From Nitrospirota bacterium (lineage in GTDB: Bacteria > Nitrospirota > Thermodesulfovibrionia > UBA6902), in contig JACRHD010000014.1 in assembly GCA_016234115.1 (NCBI GenBank), positions 1 to 61,880 on the forward strand: 61,880 bases of DNA. Reading direction: 5' to 3'. Under the pieces are notes generated by a model, which worked only from the letters and a program-made list of their open reading frames with translations, ran no database searches and was not told the DNA's origin. The stretch's first letter is position 1. The number at the start of each line of letters is the position of its first letter. The position numbers were made by a program, and so were the translations under genes. Shown in pieces: positions 35,807 through 51,011 of this stretch.

Positions 35807-36096
35807 TCATCTCGGCAGGATGCGGTAAATATGATCGTCCCGTTCCCGCCGGCTACCCCTGCCGTCCGTGTTGTTTGTCAGAAAATAGAGCGCACCGTCC
35901 GGACCTTCGACCACATCCCTGATCCTTCCGTACCTGCTGTTTTCTTTCTTATCCGTAAACCATCTTTCAATCCCGAGGACCCGATATTTATTATCTCCAT
36001 GCGTCAGCCTGATCCTGATAAGCGATTCGCTTCGAAGCGAGGCGACAAAGAGGTCCCCCTGCCCGCCCCCCGCGCTACCGACCCCAGCGCTATAGT
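35807..36096 (-). pseudogene. 3' remnant of PQQ-dependent sugar dehydrogenase
   Basis: On the minus strand the sequence reads GDLFVASLRSESLIRIRL, then ERWFTDKKENSRYGRIRDVV, EGPDGALYFLTNNTDG and DDHIYRILPR before a stop at 35807. This is the C-terminal end of soluble glucose/aldose sugar dehydrogenases of the YliI/Asd type. Family similarity stops near 36096, just before the restriction-modification genes, and no start or N-terminal part exists. Inference: insertion of the R-M island removed the first three-quarters of the gene. Confidence 0.75.
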
Positions 36097-36223
36097 TTTT
36101 GGTGACATGAATCTGTCAAACACACACGACTCCAAGAAGTCTAAAGTACTATTTCTTGTTTTTAATAGGCACAACGTATTATCATTAATAAATTTTTTGA
36201 CGATATGGGGACCGGGTTGGCCG

Positions 36224-36955
36224 ATGGAGACAATTATAAAGGATTTTAACGAAAGGGTAGCAAAAGCGATTTCTCATTACTGGTTGACCCGTGAGAATCA
36301 GGCAAGAAAGCAGGAAGGCGCGGGACGCGCAGACCAAGGGTTAAGAAGCGCGGTAACGGGCGGCGCTCAGATGGATGGCTTTATCGACTTGCTGACTGAA
36401 CTGATAGTTGACGCCGGAATTGATGAGCGCCATGTATTTCATAACAAGAATCTTGAACTTCCCGGCTTTTTCAGACCCACAAAAGAATGGGACCTCCTGG
36501 TAATCAAAGATGGTCAACTGCTTGTAGCGCTTGAAGCAAAATCACAAGTAGGTCCTTCTTTCGGCAACAATTTCAATAACCGCACTGAGGAAGCTATGGG
36601 TAGCGCCCTTGACCTCTGGACAGCATTCAGGGAGGGCGCGTTCAACAAAACAATACGGCCATGGCTTGGGTATATCTTCCTGCTTGAAGACTGCAAAGGA
36701 TCTCAAAGCGCGGTGAGAGTGAAAGAACCCCATTTCAGTGTCTTTGAGGAATTCAGGGGGGCATCCTATGCAAAAAGATATGAGCTTTTCTGCAGGAAGC
36801 TCGTAAGGGAGCGCCACTACAACGCCTCGGCCTTTTTCCTCTCCGACAGAAAAACCGGTCAAAAGGGCGCTTTCAGAGAACCCGCCGAAGACCTGACTTT
36901 CGAGCTTTACGCGAGGTCGCTTATGGCCCAGGTTGCTGCTTTTTGCAGGAGTTAA
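36224..36955 (+). CDS. PaeR7I/XhoI-type restriction endonuclease
   Basis: 243 residues. The opening (ERVAKAISHYWLTRENQARK), GFIDLLTELIVDAGI and the nuclease core EWDLLVI with LVALEAKSQVGPSFGNNFNNR match the PaeR7I family, which cuts CTCGAG; Asp and Glu-x-Lys form the active site. The frame is open to 35831, but that part covers the antisense of the dehydrogenase remnant, so ATG 36224 is chosen although its ribosome site is weak. It meets the methyltransferase gene at TAATG. Confidence 0.85.
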   Translation: METIIKDFNERVAKAISHYWLTRENQARKQEGAGRADQGLRSAVTGGAQMDGFIDLLTELIVDAGIDERHVFHNKNLELPGFFRPTKEWDLLVIKDGQLLVALEAKSQVGPSFGNNFNNRTEEAMGSALDLWTAFREGAFNKTIRPWLGYIFLLEDCKGSQSAVRVKEPHFSVFEEFRGASYAKRYELFCRKLVRERHYNASAFFLSDRKTGQKGAFREPAEDLTFELYARSLMAQVAAFCRS

Positions 36956-36957
36956 TG

Positions 36958-37908
36958 ATGAGCGCACTATCACAGTTGGAGAAACAAATTACAACCCATC
37001 GACTTATCCATGGCGATAACCGCTCGCTGTCTTTTTTGCCTGACGGGTCTGTGCACCTTGTAATAACTTCCCCTCCGTACTGGTCGTTGAAGAGATATAA
37101 TGAACATCAGGCGCAGATGGGCCATATCGTTGATTACGAGAAGTTTCTTGCCGAGTTGACAAAGGTATGGAAGGAGGTTTATCGCGTGCTTGTTCCGGGC
37201 GGCAGACTCGTCTGTGTAGTCGGGGATGTCTGTTTATCCAGGAAAGAACATGGCAGGCATCTCGTCATGCCCCTGCATGCGGACATAGCGGTCATCTGCC
37301 GAAGGCTCGGTTTTGATAACCTTAACCCTATCATCTGGCACAAGATTTCAAATGCAAAATTTGAAGCCAACAACGGCACTAAATTTCTGGGGAAACCCTA
37401 TGAGCCGAATGCCATCGTGAAGAATGATATCGAGTTTATTTTGATGCAGCGAAAACCCGGTGGCTACCGTAAGCCTACTAAAGAACAGCGCAAGTTAAGC
37501 ATGATAGCCAAAGACGACTTTTCGCAGTGGTTCCGGCAGTTCTGGACCATCACAGGCGCCTCCACCCGCAACCATCCCGCGCCTTTCCCATATGAACTTG
37601 CTTATCGGCTTGTGAAAATGTTTTCCTTTTGGGGCGACACAGTCCTTGACCCCTTTTGCGGGACCGGCACAACAATGCTTGCCGCTATGAAATGCGGAAG
37701 ACATAGTATCGGCATTGAGATAGATGAAGAATATTGCCGTATGACTCTCGATCGGCTGAAAGCAGAGGCTCGGGGGTTGCCTGCTGAGGTCAGGATTGAG
37801 TTTTCAATATTGAACGACAAGGACAAGGCTTTTACGGTCCATGAAGAGCCTGCGGCTTATGGGGGGAAAGAGAGGAAGAAGACGGCGAAGAGGAAGGGGA
37901 CAAAGTGA
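36958..37908 (+). CDS. DNA methyltransferase of the R-M system
   Basis: A 316-residue beta-class amino-methyltransferase: catalytic TSPPYW (motif IV) lies near residue 36, before the SAM motif DPFCGTGTTMLAA near residue 230. The SPPY form is usual for N4-cytosine but also occurs in N6-adenine enzymes. It presumably protects the site cut by the upstream nuclease. ATG 36958 is six bases from AGGAG; ATG 36955 overlaps the nuclease stop. The C-terminus is very basic (KERKKTAKRKGTK). Confidence 0.9.
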   Translation: MSALSQLEKQITTHRLIHGDNRSLSFLPDGSVHLVITSPPYWSLKRYNEHQAQMGHIVDYEKFLAELTKVWKEVYRVLVPGGRLVCVVGDVCLSRKEHGRHLVMPLHADIAVICRRLGFDNLNPIIWHKISNAKFEANNGTKFLGKPYEPNAIVKNDIEFILMQRKPGGYRKPTKEQRKLSMIAKDDFSQWFRQFWTITGASTRNHPAPFPYELAYRLVKMFSFWGDTVLDPFCGTGTTMLAAMKCGRHSIGIEIDEEYCRMTLDRLKAEARGLPAEVRIEFSILNDKDKAFTVHEEPAAYGGKERKKTAKRKGTK

Positions 37909-38387: not shown

Positions 38388-38612
38388 TCAAGCCCCTTCA
38401 AATTTCATCTCTTCTTTCACCCTGTCCACAACACGGCGGACATCGTTTAAACATCAGCGCCCAAGGAGGTTAGTTTCGGCGCAGTTGCAGGCGCCTTTTT
38501 TCTTTTCGGAAAGTATCCGCTCAATGATCAGCGAGCGTCCCTGGTTCTCCCTGACGTCTTTCATGATGTCCGCATCGGTGTAGCCGAAACAGTAACAGAT
38601 AAGGTTTTTCAT
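38388..38612 (-). CDS. CopZ/BFD-like [2Fe-2S] protein, putative selenoprotein
   Basis: Read through an in-frame TGA (38456-38454), this gives 74 residues. The first 52 (ICYCFGYTDADIMKDVREN ... GACNCAETNLLGR) match the iron-sulfur domain of CopZ-type metallochaperones, where GR is followed by two Cys. Here TGA occupies the first Cys place and TGT the second, and the frame continues CLNDVRRVVDRVKEEMKFEGA to a normal TGA stop. A 7-bp stem with a six-base loop (CGUGUU) starts 11 bases after the TGA, as in bacterial SECIS elements. Alternative: a nonsense mutation. No selA/selB is in the window, and the ribosome site is weak. Confidence 0.6.
38423..38442 (-). promoter_or_regulatory. SECIS-like hairpin after the in-frame TGA
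   Basis: On the minus strand UGUCCGC pairs with GUGGACA (one G-U pair) around loop CGUGUU. The loop begins 18 bases after the UGA, close to the position of the apical GGUCU loop in E. coli fdhF. Confidence 0.5.
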
Positions 38613-38694: not shown

Positions 38695-39357
38695 CTATTC
38701 TGCCGGCAATATATTATCCGGAGCATCATAAGCAGCGGAATTCACTTTCTTAGACACAGAATACCATTCCATTTCATCCGGACTATAGGGTCTCAAAAGA
38801 GACATCAGTTTCTCTCTGTCGTATGAATCAGGATCAAGCCAGCAGTCATAGTCATCTCTTGAAATTATGGCGGGCATCCTGTCGTGCATTGATGATACGA
38901 TCTCATTCGGTTCCGTTGTTATGATCGTGCAGGTGCAGATCTCCTCTCCCTCCGGGGAAGTCCATACGTTGTACAGTCCCGCAAAACCGAATGGCCGGGC
39001 CGATTTGAGGCGGATGTAAACAGGTGTTTTTGTTTTCCCCTTCTTCCATTCATAGAACCCGTCTGCGACCACGAGACAACGCTGATTTTTAAATGCGTCT
39101 CTGAACGCCGGTTTGTCCGCAACGGTTTCCGCCCGCGCATGAATCATGCTGTTGCCTATGCCGGGGTCCTTTGCCCACGAAGGGACAAAACCCCACCTGC
39201 ATTGGGTGAGTATCCTTGTCCGGTCCTTTCTGACTATGACAATCTTCCGGGTCGGCGCGATATTGTAACTGGGTATGTATTCCAGATGGGATTTATCAAC
39301 GCGGAACTCCTCGATGATCGTTTTAGCAGGGCTGCAAAGAACAAAGCGTCCGCACAT
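38695..39357 (-). CDS. SRAP-domain protein (HMCES/YedK-like)
   Basis: 220 residues beginning MCGRFV, where Cys2 forms the crosslink to abasic sites in single-stranded DNA. PSYNIAPT, RWGFVPSWAKDP, NSMIHARAETV, CLVVADGFYEWKK and MHDRMPAII (active-site His) are all present. It shields abasic sites at forks from nucleases. Its length is normal. It lies among several nucleic-acid genes and may be induced by DNA damage, though no LexA site was identified. Confidence 0.92.
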   Translation of the reverse strand: MCGRFVLCSPAKTIIEEFRVDKSHLEYIPSYNIAPTRKIVIVRKDRTRILTQCRWGFVPSWAKDPGIGNSMIHARAETVADKPAFRDAFKNQRCLVVADGFYEWKKGKTKTPVYIRLKSARPFGFAGLYNVWTSPEGEEICTCTIITTEPNEIVSSMHDRMPAIISRDDYDCWLDPDSYDREKLMSLLRPYSPDEMEWYSVSKKVNSAAYDAPDNILPAE

Positions 39358-39665: not shown

Positions 39666-40460
39666 ATCGTAACAGCACCCATAAAGGACTTTGCCCTTTT
39701 CACGGATGTCAGCGTAAGTCCCGGCCTCAAACTCGGCGTGGGCGTCTATGTTATGTTGCCCGCTTCATTTTTAGAGTCCTCTCCCGCAGCTATTGGAAGG
39801 ACCGAAATAATCGGGCTGTTAAAGGTGAAGAGATTCAAAGGCACTTCCTCGACGAGGCTCGAACTTCAGACCGTTTTATGGGCGCTTGCGGAGAACCGGC
39901 AGGTCCCGCACGGACGCCTGACGTTATATTCCGATTCCCAATGCGTTACAGGCCTTCTCAGGAGAAAACCCCGCTTGCTGGCAGGAGGGTTCCTTTCGAA
40001 AAAGACAAACCGGCAGTTGATCAACGCTTCTCTTTACCGCGCATTTTACGAATTTCACGACGAATCGGGCTTTCAGGTCGTAAAGGTTGCCGGGCATTCC
40101 AAATCCCGCAATCACGACCCCGTTCACCGGATTTTCTCAATTGTGGACAGGGAGGCAAGGAAGGCCCTGAAGATATGGCTGAAGGAATCAACGGAAGTGC
40201 GGATTGAGACGAACAACGGACACTGGTGCGTCTATGCGCTCAGGTGCCGCAACAATTCTCTATACATCGGGATGACGAATAATCTCGAGAAAAGGATTGA
40301 AAAGCACAAGCTCGGGACCGGCAGCAAATTCGTAAGATCGTGGAGGCCGTTCGAGCTGGTCAAGACGATACCGTGCAGGAATGCCGCGGAAGCGAGAAGG
40401 CTCGAGTGCGAGTTGAAGGCCCTCACAAGAAAAAAGAAGATCGAAGCGCTTGAGCTTTGA
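39666..40460 (+). CDS. RNase H-like / GIY-YIG nuclease fusion
   Basis: 264 residues if begun at ATC 39666. The first 150 are an RNase HI-type domain: FTDVSVSP (first Asp), RLELQTVLWAL (Glu), LYSDSQCVTG (second Asp) and IVDREARKAL (last Asp). The last 85 are a GIY-YIG nuclease domain (CVYALRCRNNSLYIGMTNNL ... EARRLECELKALTR). The only standard in-frame start, GTG 39738, would drop the first catalytic Asp. AGGAG sits six bases before ATC 39666, so a rare start codon is likely. Substrate unknown, presumably RNA-DNA hybrids or branched DNA. Confidence 0.75.
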   Translation: MVTAPIKDFALFTDVSVSPGLKLGVGVYVMLPASFLESSPAAIGRTEIIGLLKVKRFKGTSSTRLELQTVLWALAENRQVPHGRLTLYSDSQCVTGLLRRKPRLLAGGFLSKKTNRQLINASLYRAFYEFHDESGFQVVKVAGHSKSRNHDPVHRIFSIVDREARKALKIWLKESTEVRIETNNGHWCVYALRCRNNSLYIGMTNNLEKRIEKHKLGTGSKFVRSWRPFELVKTIPCRNAAEARRLECELKALTRKKKIEALEL

Positions 40461-46646: not shown

Positions 46647-46778
46647 TCATCCTCCGTTAGACGGCATGCCCCGGTCACCGGTAGACAACCGGGGTATTAC
46701 GTGTTATAAATAGAGTATGTAGTCATCCCAACAAGGCCAAACCCTCCGTCAGAGGTGGGAAGCGGCGGGCGCCTGAAA

Positions 46779-49700
46779 ATGGAAAACCAGAGTAAGTCAA
46801 ACATCCTCGGGATAGATATCGGTTCAGTGTCTGTTTCAATTGTTGAAATGGACCTGAACAGGGAAATTGTCACAACCGCTTATGAATTCCATCACGGCAA
46901 CATCATTGAGACCGTCAGAAAGGTCCTGAACGGTTTCGATCTGTCCGGGATACGCGGTATCGCCTCCACATCTTCGACCCCGTCGGTCATTAAAGTAAAC
47001 GGCCAGTATGATAACCGGGTCGCAATCATCACGGCCGCCCGGCATTTCCATGAAAAGACAGGCGCTATTTTAATTGTAGGGGGCGAAAGGTTCGGGCTGA
47101 TTAATTTTGACGAGGACGGCAACTACCTTAATTTCAGGTCAAACACTTCATGCGCGGCAGGCACCGGCAGCTTTCTGGACCAGCAGGCCAAAAGGCTGAA
47201 CCTGAGCGGGATAGAGGAGCTGAGTGAGCTCGCGTTCAACAATAAGGGCGTAATTCCTAAAATCGCTACACGATGCGCGGTATTCGCCAAGACAGACCTT
47301 GTCCATGCTCAGCAGGAGGGATACTCATTGGAGGAAATCTGCGACGGCCTGTGCAGGGGGCTGGCAAAGAATATAGTGGATACGCTGTTTAAAGACGCAA
47401 AGACCAATCCTCCCATTATATTCACGGGAGGCGTATCGAGAAACAGGGCCGTTGCCCGGCATATCCAGTCGATCATCGGGATGGACATTATTGCGGATGA
47501 AATGTCCCGGCTCTACGGCGCTATCGGGGCTGGACTCAATCTTTTGGAAGGGCCGGGCCTGCTCAATAAGGTTGATGTACAGTCCGCGGACGATATCCTG
47601 ATTCAGGCCCCTCTAAAAAAGAAGCACTACTATGAGCCGCTCAGCCTGAAGCTCTCCGGCTATCCGGATTTCAGCAGTGTTGAAAAGTACGACTATGCCG
47701 CATTTGACCCTGAGGACATGTACCCGGTAGAGGTCGATATTTATGAACATCTTGCGCCGTCGAAGAAATATGAAGTTTACCTCGGAATCGATATCGGCTC
47801 TACAAGCACGAAGGCGATACTGATGGACAATGACAGGACGGTCCTTTCCGGATTTTATACAAGGACAGCCGGGAGGCCCGTTCATGCGGTACGGAAGTTA
47901 TTCGCGTCAATTGATGATGTTATTGAAAAAAAGAAACTGGATGTCCGTATCATCGGGTCCGGGACCACGGGAGGCGGAAGGAAATTCTCGGGAAAGATAA
48001 TCGGGGCCGATATGATAATCGATGAGATCACCGCTCACGCGCGCGCTGCCTGTGAACTTGATCCGGAAGTGGACACCATTATTGAAATCGGCGGCCAGGA
48101 CTCCAAATTCACCACTTTAAGAAAAGGAATTGTCACCTTCTCCGCAATGAATAATGTATGCGCTGCCGGGACCGGGAGCTTTATCGAAGAGCAGGCCCTG
48201 AAACTGCGATGCCCCCTGTCCGATTATTCAGAGAGAACAGAAGGCAGAAGGGCGCCCATTTCAAGCGACAGGTGCACGGTGTTTATGGAGAGGGACATTA
48301 ATCACTATTTAAACGAAGGGTACACGGTCGATGAGGCACTCGCGTCCGTGCTCCACTCCATACGTGAAAACTACCTGATGAAGGTCGCTATCGAAAGCAG
48401 CATCGGAAATAAAATATGCTTTCAGGGGGCGACTGCAAAGAACAAGGCCCTCGTGGCGGCCTTTGAACAGAGACTCCAAAAACCGATCCATGTATCCAGG
48501 TATTGTCATCTGACAGGCGCGTTAGGGGTCGCGCTCATGCTCTTGGAGCAAGGGGTGAAAGCAAGCGCCTTCAAGGGACTGAAGCTTTATCAAAAACAGA
48601 TACCGGTAAGGTCTGAAGTTTGCGAGCTGTGCCCCAACCACTGCAAGATAACCGTTGCGGACGTTGACGGCGAAAGTGTCGCCTACGGGTTCCTGTGCGG
48701 CAGGGATTATGATACAAAAAAATATATAAACAATAACCTCTCCGGTTTTGATCTGCTTAAAGAAAGAAAAAAGGCTTTTTCATTCAAGTCGGTCAGGGAA
48801 CATAAAGAACAATGCACCATCGGCATCCCGGCAGCCCTTCATATGTTGGAAGACCTGCCGTTCTGGAAGACCTTCTTTGAAGAACTGTCCATAAAAACCA
48901 TTACCAGCGAGTCATATACGGACGCGGTAAAAGAAGGAAAGCGTCTGGCCGGCTCTGAATTCTGCTCGCCCATGACCTCCCTCTACGGGCATGTGAATTA
49001 TCTGCTGAAGAAGGTGGATTACATCTTCCTGCCCTTCTATCTCGAAAAGCAGTCGAAGGAAAAGGGCGTCAGACGCCAGTATTGTTACTATACCCAGTTC
49101 TCTCCTTCACTCGTTTCCCAAACGGCTTCAAAGGTTGACAAAGACCGGTTTCTCATGCCGCTTGTGAACTATTTATATAATGCTCTTTATATGAAGGCTC
49201 AGCTTTACAAGACGCTGAGACCTGTTTTAAAAGACAGCATCGGCATCTTTGATGTTTCCAGGGCGTATGACAAGGCGCTTCAGTTCAATGATTCATGCTC
49301 GCTGCGATTAAAGGAGATATATAAAAGAGAAACAGCCGGCGCCGATGACATTCACGTCGTATTTTTAGGCAGACCTTATGCGGTCCTTTCCGGGGAGATG
49401 AACGGCGGGGTCCCCGGTATCTTTGCATCGTTAGGCATTAAGACCTTTTTTCAGGACATGCTGTCCTATACCCCGGAAGATGTGGAGTCGATAGAGCCGC
49501 TTTGCAATGAGCTGCTGTGGTATTACGCCTCGGAGATATTAAGGTCCGCCGAGGTCGTTGCGCGATCCGGGAAGGCATACCCGGTATTTGTGACCTCTTT
49601 CAAGTGCTCGCCTGATTCCTTTGCCGTAGAGTATTTCAAGAAGCTCATGGATGCCCATGACAAGCCTTACCTCATTTTACAGCTTGACGAACATTCTTCA

Positions 49701-51011
49701 AAGGTGGGTTATGAGACGAGGATAGAGGCGGCGGTCCGGTCTTTCAGGAACCATCATCGATCTCTTGTTTCGGCCGGAAAAAAGAAGCCCGCTGCATACG
49801 GGTCTTCGCTCGTCCCGGTCAAAGAACATCAGCTTTCCGGAAAAACACTGATCATTCCAAACTGGGACAACCTCAGCATGAACCTGATCGTTGCCAATCT
49901 CAGGAGTGAAGGCATCGACGCAAGGCTCCTCGAAGAAACTCATTCAAGCATTCAAAAGAGCCTGCGCTACAACAGCGGTCAGTGTATTCCCCTCAGCATA
50001 ATCGCCCAGGAGTTTATCGATTATGTTGAAAAGCATGATCTCGATCCCGCAAAGACTGTCTTGTGGATGCTGGATACGACCCTGTCCTGTAATCTCAGGA
50101 TGTATCCTCATCACATAAAAAACATACTGAACACCCATGGAAACGGCATGTCAAAGGCCGGCGTGTATACGGGTAAATTGTCCTTCATCGATATCTCGCT
50201 GAGGCTCCCTGTGGACACGTATTTTGCCTATATGTTCGGAGGGCTTGTCAGGAAAATGGGATGCAGGATACGGCCTTATGAAAAGGTGAAAGGGGAAACT
50301 GATAAGGCAATCAAAAAGAGCATCGATATCCTCTCGGCCGCCTTTTTAGGAAAGCGGTCAAAGGAATCCGCTGTCGCCGAAGCCGTATCGTATTTTGAGG
50401 CCATTGAGACCCGTTATGAAGAAAGGCCCAAAGTCGCCATCTACGGTGACATGTATGTGCGGGACAATGAAGTGATGAACCAGGGCCTGGTGCATTTCAT
50501 TGAAGCCAACGGCGGCGAGGTCATTACTACTCCCTTCAGCTCTTATCTCAAGATGATTTCCGGACAGTATTTCAGGAAGTGGTTTATCGAAGGGAAATAC
50601 CTCGACATACTGTCTACAAAGACACTGATCGCCACGGTGACCATGTTAGAGAAAAATTATTATAAATATTTTGAACGGATATTAAAGGAGCCTGAACTGG
50701 AATATAACGAATCGCCGGAGAAGCTCCTTTCGCAATACAACATCAGGCTGGAAAATACCGGCGAATCCATGGACAACATATTGAAGCTCTTCTACATAAA
50801 AAAGCACTACCCCGACGTGGCCCTCTTCGTCCAGGCAAACCCGGCCCTGTGCTGCGCGTCGGTGATTACCGAGGCGATGGCGAAGGAGATAGAGAAGAAG
50901 ACAGGGACGCCGATGGTGTCGGTGACATACGACGGGACTGGGGGGAATAAGAATGATGTTATTATTCCGTATCTCAAGTATTCGGCCTCGACGCATCTTA
51001 GCGTGATTTAG
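46779..51011 (+). CDS. Giant acyl-CoA dehydratase activase-related protein
   Basis: 1,410 residues. Two tandem BadF/BcrA-type ASKHA ATPase domains occupy about 10-270 (GIDIGSVSVSIVEMD, CAAGTGSFLDQQAKRL) and 335-590 (GIDIGSTSTKAILMD, CAAGTGSFIEEQALKL). Each has a Cys that can hold the shared [4Fe-4S] cluster. A DUF2229 region follows (CELCPNHCKITV, FLCGRDYDTKKY), then a HgdB/dehydratase-like C-terminal half. Such fusions are linked to ATP-driven electron transfer to 2-hydroxyacyl-CoA dehydratases or unknown radical enzymes. It stands alone. ATG 46779 is preferred to 46755. Confidence 0.85.
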   Translation: MENQSKSNILGIDIGSVSVSIVEMDLNREIVTTAYEFHHGNIIETVRKVLNGFDLSGIRGIASTSSTPSVIKVNGQYDNRVAIITAARHFHEKTGAILIVGGERFGLINFDEDGNYLNFRSNTSCAAGTGSFLDQQAKRLNLSGIEELSELAFNNKGVIPKIATRCAVFAKTDLVHAQQEGYSLEEICDGLCRGLAKNIVDTLFKDAKTNPPIIFTGGVSRNRAVARHIQSIIGMDIIADEMSRLYGAIGAGLNLLEGPGLLNKVDVQSADDILIQAPLKKKHYYEPLSLKLSGYPDFSSVEKYDYAAFDPEDMYPVEVDIYEHLAPSKKYEVYLGIDIGSTSTKAILMDNDRTVLSGFYTRTAGRPVHAVRKLFASIDDVIEKKKLDVRIIGSGTTGGGRKFSGKIIGADMIIDEITAHARAACELDPEVDTIIEIGGQDSKFTTLRKGIVTFSAMNNVCAAGTGSFIEEQALKLRCPLSDYSERTEGRRAPISSDRCTVFMERDINHYLNEGYTVDEALASVLHSIRENYLMKVAIESSIGNKICFQGATAKNKALVAAFEQRLQKPIHVSRYCHLTGALGVALMLLEQGVKASAFKGLKLYQKQIPVRSEVCELCPNHCKITVADVDGESVAYGFLCGRDYDTKKYINNNLSGFDLLKERKKAFSFKSVREHKEQCTIGIPAALHMLEDLPFWKTFFEELSIKTITSESYTDAVKEGKRLAGSEFCSPMTSLYGHVNYLLKKVDYIFLPFYLEKQSKEKGVRRQYCYYTQFSPSLVSQTASKVDKDRFLMPLVNYLYNALYMKAQLYKTLRPVLKDSIGIFDVSRAYDKALQFNDSCSLRLKEIYKRETAGADDIHVVFLGRPYAVLSGEMNGGVPGIFASLGIKTFFQDMLSYTPEDVESIEPLCNELLWYYASEILRSAEVVARSGKAYPVFVTSFKCSPDSFAVEYFKKLMDAHDKPYLILQLDEHSSKVGYETRIEAAVRSFRNHHRSLVSAGKKKPAAYGSSLVPVKEHQLSGKTLIIPNWDNLSMNLIVANLRSEGIDARLLEETHSSIQKSLRYNSGQCIPLSIIAQEFIDYVEKHDLDPAKTVLWMLDTTLSCNLRMYPHHIKNILNTHGNGMSKAGVYTGKLSFIDISLRLPVDTYFAYMFGGLVRKMGCRIRPYEKVKGETDKAIKKSIDILSAAFLGKRSKESAVAEAVSYFEAIETRYEERPKVAIYGDMYVRDNEVMNQGLVHFIEANGGEVITTPFSSYLKMISGQYFRKWFIEGKYLDILSTKTLIATVTMLEKNYYKYFERILKEPELEYNESPEKLLSQYNIRLENTGESMDNILKLFYIKKHYPDVALFVQANPALCCASVITEAMAKEIEKKTGTPMVSVTYDGTGGNKNDVIIPYLKYSASTHLSVI

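Follow-up and report, generated by a model that had tools for sequence, protein, structure and literature searches.

A short gene encoding a CopZ/BFD-like protein in the genome of a Nitrospirota bacterium carries an in-frame TGA that is most probably read as selenocysteine (Sec). From comparative evidence we put the probability that this is a genuine selenoprotein gene at roughly 0.96, and we consider it highly probable, too, that the protein into which Sec is inserted is of the CopZ/BFD-like kind. The gene lies in a stretch of 61,880 nucleotides, which we refer to as the window. What began as a guess from a single genome is now a comparative case involving about 100 TGA-containing homologues from two bacterial classes. 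The placement of relatives in arsenic-resistance (ars) operons provides a new functional lead for a selenoprotein family that is listed in reviews.

The reading frame and its hairpin

A first-pass annotation of this DNA, which left the strand unstated, had described a TGA within a 74-codon frame, at the place of the first Cys of the CopZ Cys-Cys pair, and 21 open codons from there to a proper stop. Direct translation bears this out on the minus strand: the frame reads MKNLICYCFGYTDADIMKDVRENQGRSLIIERILSEKKKGACNCAETNLLGR (codons 1–52), U (codon 53) and CLNDVRRVVDRVKEEMKFEGA (codons 54–74, the 21 that follow the internal TGA), and after these 74 codons ends at a TGA stop (Table 1). The start site is shared with homologues; no clear Shine-Dalgarno sequence was seen upstream of the ATG. 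Gene callers that halt at the internal TGA would give the N-terminal part only.

Table 1. Positions, in window coordinates, of the gene and of the features discussed in the text.
Feature	Position	Strand	Remarks
CDS, 74-aa CopZ/BFD-like predicted selenoprotein	38388..38612	-	ATG 38612-38610, stop TGA 38390-38388; direct translation
In-frame TGA, predicted Sec53	38454..38456	-	Codon 53; opens the invariant U-C pair (GRUC)
SECIS-like stem-loop	38423..38442	-	7 bp, overlaps codons 57-64; MFE fold, compensatory pair changes, frozen synonymous sites
C6-Y7-C8 (C-x-C), presumed two [2Fe-2S] ligands	38589..38597	-	C6 and C8 invariant (n=73); align with C75/C77 of 2HU9
C42-N43-C44	38481..38489	-	C44 presumed ligand (aligns with C109 of 2HU9); C42 extra, proposed partner of Sec53; putative roles
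C54 (U-C pair, second position), presumed to be the fourth ligand of the cluster	38451..38453	-	Invariant; aligns with C119 of 2HU9

The stem-loop reported downstream of the TGA was likewise recovered. Its 7-bp stem starts 11 nt past the TGA and closes a loop of 6 nt (CGUGUU, 38435-38430), and folding of the 45-nt stretch gives it as the MFE structure (-11.6 kcal/mol; z -1.9, with 9 of 200 shuffles equally good). In one sequence, an open frame and a hairpin are weak evidence and lie within chance: the single-sequence estimate for 21 open codons after a TGA is p = 0.36, and of the window's 2342 TGAs, 128 (5.5%) are accompanied by a hairpin of at least 7 bp in bSECIS-like placement, a number that falls to 47 (2.0%) when at least four G-C pairs are also required. 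An Rfam scan of the whole window returned no match at gathering thresholds; since it was empty everywhere, it is neutral on the hairpin, speaking neither for nor against it. The evidence stands far above chance because it is conserved across genomes, and does not come from the single sequence.

Conservation of the TGA and selection on the RNA

Homologues were sought with a profile built from five sequences in 230 genomes of the host's class. The search recovered 33 intact single-domain homologues in 32 genomes, all 33 with TGA in the same column. A second search covered 291 genomes of the class to which a Desulfobacteraceae relative (L003) belongs: every one of the 74 matches above 58 bits holds an in-frame TGA, and the roughly 40 of these that were read have the U-C motif, with TGA in the same column. 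Neither the 230 genomes of the host's class nor the 291 of the other yielded an intact single-domain form with Cys. Cys occupies the TGA column in longer, full-length CopZ proteins (L058, L060, L061, L062 and L064), as GRCC or GSCC. The U/C exchange that the first-pass annotation had suggested looking for is therefore present, full-length CopZ having Cys where every intact single-domain homologue read has Sec. A FastTree tree of the Sec and Cys forms gave a support of 0.0 and hence no direction for the exchange.

Several apparent Cys or stop-free single-domain copies (L059, L063, L066, L067 and L098) proved to be fragments or frameshifted and were rejected. L066 (genome G158) is a C-terminal fragment with TGC (Cys) for TGA, the N-terminal half being absent in that frame; it is possibly a decayed copy that switched from Sec to Cys. 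In the remaining four, the TGA gene is interrupted by frameshifts or stops, and the genomes of L059, L063 and L098 also carry an intact copy. The existence of decayed copies means that the TGA gene is sometimes lost; in part, they could be assembly errors rather than repeated loss.

Constraint on the hairpin was assessed in 34 intact sequences (the 33 from the host's class plus L003) as the frequency with which a pair of sequences that agree in the amino acid also agree in the codon. At hairpin codons this frequency is 1.00, 0.95, 0.93 and 1.00 (alignment columns 53, 54, 55 and 57), as against 0.41, 0.24 and 0.41 for Val and Arg codons outside the hairpin (range 0.24–0.42). The loop ends on the third base of a Val codon, and that codon is free, at 0.42. 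In the same-class set 97.4% of hairpin cells are paired versus 94.9% in shuffles (0 of 500 as high), and pairing drops to 28–59% when the hairpin is slid along the alignment. Both sides of a pair have changed in 11 cells (0 of 500 shuffles); pair 20-29, for example, is GC in 17 sequences, AU in nine and GU in seven, and never A-C. The Desulfobacteria set, analysed apart, has 90.5% of its hairpin cells paired, against 29–67% when slid, and here pair 18-31 is CG in 27, UA in five and UG in one. The covariation counts are inflated by the kinship of the sequences, yet compensation occurs at different pairs in the two classes. The bSECIS-like element of the first-pass annotation is thus a conserved structure just downstream of the TGA, with compensatory changes and synonymous constraint, and the pattern shows RNA-level selection on a hairpin inside coding sequence.

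All four genes for which a search had been proposed are present in the host genome, which is 3.5 Mb in size and 97% complete: selA (SelA, 617.7 bits), selB (SelB, 359.5 bits, over the cut-off and with no internal stop), selC (tRNA-Sec, anticodon TCA, 72.5 bits) and selD (SelD, 325.5 bits, whose own frame also holds one internal TGA). Judged by this gene content, the host can make and insert Sec. We propose that SelB and Sec-tRNA would decode the UGA at codon 53, directed by the SECIS hairpin in the coding stretch that follows. All 32 class genomes with the TGA gene have selA, a co-occurrence that is low in power because 203 of the 230 class genomes carry selA: at that base rate, the chance that all TGA-gene genomes would have it is about 0.015 (computed for 31 genomes).

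That the TGA is an ordinary stop, yielding a functional 52-residue N-terminal piece or marking the pseudogene of a Cys protein, is very improbable: the open frame and the hairpin are each within chance in a single sequence and decayed family copies are known (L059, L063, L067 and L098), but an ordinary stop would not account for the recurrence, in two bacterial classes, of TGA in one column with UC-L-x-D-V-(R/H) conserved from there on, for the frozen synonymous sites and compensatory pairs of the hairpin, or for the failure to find an intact single-domain Cys form among the genomes searched.

The protein, its family and the place of Sec53

The CopZ/BFD-like identity given in the first-pass annotation holds by profile, though below curated cut-offs: no NCBIfam or Pfam model matches the window protein above its own. 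The model for full-length CopZ (NF047645) gives 46.6 bits against a cut-off of 100, covering model positions 85–137 of 138; NF045877 (Csac_0668) gives 24.1 bits against 190; and Pfam Fer2_BFD (PF04324) gives 17.4 against a gathering threshold of 26. Among 73 family members, all 73 match NF047645 at E ≤ 0.001, 48 match PF04324 at E ≤ 0.01 and 66 match NF045877 weakly. A profile search of the PDB returned a sole match, the CopZ of A. fulgidus (2HU9, E 0.008). AlphaFold produced a confident helical model (pLDDT 92.8), for which Foldseek gave three hits, all to Bfd (PDB 6e6r and 4e6k) and none significant. A BFD-like [2Fe-2S] fold is accordingly likely.

Whether the family had already been listed was a question left by the first-pass annotation. 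In two reviews (PMC13188914, PMC9312934), a '(2Fe-2S)-binding protein (copper chaperone CopZ family) form 1', cd10141, appears as a predicted selenoprotein; Table 1 of PMC13188914 gives it the motif GxUC and the representative WP_245779778.1, and a form 2 is listed with the motif CU. The CopZ family is not named in the main text of the review-cited GOS paper (PMC2398784). The window gene has the domain class and the motif of form 1, with GRUC in a CopZ-like, Fer2_BFD-like domain whose relation to CopZ is seen by profile; likened in this way by motif and domain, it fits as a further member of that predicted family. Form 2 (NF045877, CopZ_Nterm_CU) shares a related BFD-like domain but is a longer model and has Sec at the second position (CU), where the window protein has UC. 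NF047645 (CopZ_Nterm_CC) and 2HU9 share the BFD-like part and its C-x-C; they differ in having Cys for Sec (GRCC instead of GRUC) and an N-terminal part that the window protein is without. Bfd (PF04324) has a similarly small helical [2Fe-2S] fold, but no Sec.

Eight residues are invariant in the 73 sequences: C6, C8, F9, S27, C42, C44, Sec53 and C54. We expect a product of one domain, a CopZ/BFD-type [2Fe-2S] protein that is presumably cytosolic and has one Sec besides its five invariant Cys. In the alignment to 2HU9, C6/C8, C44, Sec53 and C54 fall on C75/C77, C109, C118 and C119. We take the cluster ligands of A. fulgidus CopZ to be C75, C77, C109 and C119; C6, C8, C44 and C54 would then hold the cluster, and Sec53 and C42 would be two extra residues, an assignment that comes from one weak alignment. 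Next to the cluster, these two may act together as a further pair for redox chemistry or metal(loid) binding.

The first-pass annotation had suggested Sec as a cluster ligand or a redox residue. Of these, the ligand is the less likely, since Sec53 aligns with Cys118, beside the presumed ligand Cys119; an additional redox or metal-binding residue is the part of the suggestion that we retain. A selenoprotein in which Sec53 itself replaces Cys as a [2Fe-2S] ligand is nonetheless the most durable of the alternatives, unlikely as we judge it. The U column is among the invariant residues, and Bfd has the ligand pattern C-x-C...C-x-x-C, so that with a C-x-x-C for the last two ligands the register could differ here. 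Set against this, the profile alignment places C54, not Sec53, on C119, of which Sec would be only the neighbour if C119 is a ligand, and the protein has six invariant chalcogen residues, more than the four that a [2Fe-2S] cluster needs. On balance we lean towards Sec53 being no cluster ligand.

Genomic context and possible function

The window gene lies downstream of an SRAP gene (38695-39357, minus strand) and outside any ars operon; the host's one ACR3 gene is on another contig, and no HgcA was found in the host genome. The loci of the class as a whole were more informative. Of 31 read with wider flanks, 16 (a raw count) hold the TGA gene in a same-strand arsenic-resistance operon, and ACR3 is present in 15 of these 16. 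The typical order is permease, ArsR, (ArsC), ACR3, thioredoxin-like protein, TGA gene and CcdA-like protein. These loci belong to families f12, f20 and f21. Most instances of the ars-operon context come from part of the host's class; among 40 Desulfobacteria loci, ACR3 is nearby in only two or three (L164, L166 and, less clearly, L184). NCBIfam hits above cut-off identified the ACR3, HgcA and CDF neighbours. For the permease (SaoE/SO_0444-like) and for the CcdA/DsbD-like and thioredoxin-like proteins the hits stay below cut-off, and ArsR and ArsC were assigned by inspection of their sequences.

Four of the 31 class loci (L116, L121, L122 and L130) have the mercury-methylation gene hgcA no more than about 5 kb away on the same strand, and in L116 and L121 it is directly downstream of the TGA gene. 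ArsR and ACR3 share the gene cluster with the TGA gene and hgcA in all four. That ArsR, ACR3 and ArsC occur beside hgcAB is already known (PMC7438021); the passages of that account consulted here do not mention the selenoprotein. Nor do the consulted passages of the two reviews give an operon context for form 1. We found no earlier report of the ars linkage of the TGA gene, and prior mention in the literature is possible. The recurring neighbours are thus those of arsenite efflux, arsenate reduction and the thioredoxin/CcdA pathway, and four times the gene is found near hgcA.

This context makes metal(loid) or thiol-redox handling preferable, with modest confidence, to copper chaperoning, and we infer a function in cytosolic redox or metalloid-thiol handling. 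The role in copper chaperoning or other copper handling that the name CopZ evokes is improbable. The nearest solved and curated relatives are of the CopZ type, Sec is capable of binding soft metals such as Cu(I), and Cu/Zn efflux proteins of the SO_0444 type are distant relatives of the operon permease; but the window protein is without the remainder of full-length CopZ, and the recurrent neighbours of the family are arsenic, mercury and thiol-redox genes, with no copper ATPase or copper chaperone noticed.

For metal(loid) or thiol-redox handling, the operons of relatives suggest a possible course: the protein may pass electrons to, or carry, soft metal(loid) thiolates (those of As(III) or Hg(II), for example) that are to be exported or reduced, with ACR3, the thioredoxin-like protein and the CcdA-like membrane protein as partners. 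A role in metal(loid) detoxification is a tentative proposal for the family, somewhat short of even odds, and its likelihood is lower for the host's own copy because that copy is outside an ars operon. More speculative still is the full picture: a [2Fe-2S] protein with six chalcogen residues (C-x-C, C-x-C, U-C), in which Sec is close to obligatory, working in arsenic/mercury detoxification operons. There it would connect the cytosol with ACR3 and the thioredoxin/CcdA pathway, either as a cluster-coupled C42/Sec53 selenenylsulfide relay or as a metalloid carrier.

Other genes of the window were noted in passing. An XhoI-type restriction endonuclease adjoins an N6/N4 DNA methylase at 35831-37908 (plus strand), an apparent type II restriction-modification pair. 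A 240-aa ORF at 39738-40460 (plus strand) combines an N-terminal RNase H domain with a C-terminal GIY-YIG nuclease domain, an unusual pairing, and a BadF/BcrA-type CoA-enzyme activase of 1418 aa, with DUF2229, is encoded at 46755-51011 (plus strand).
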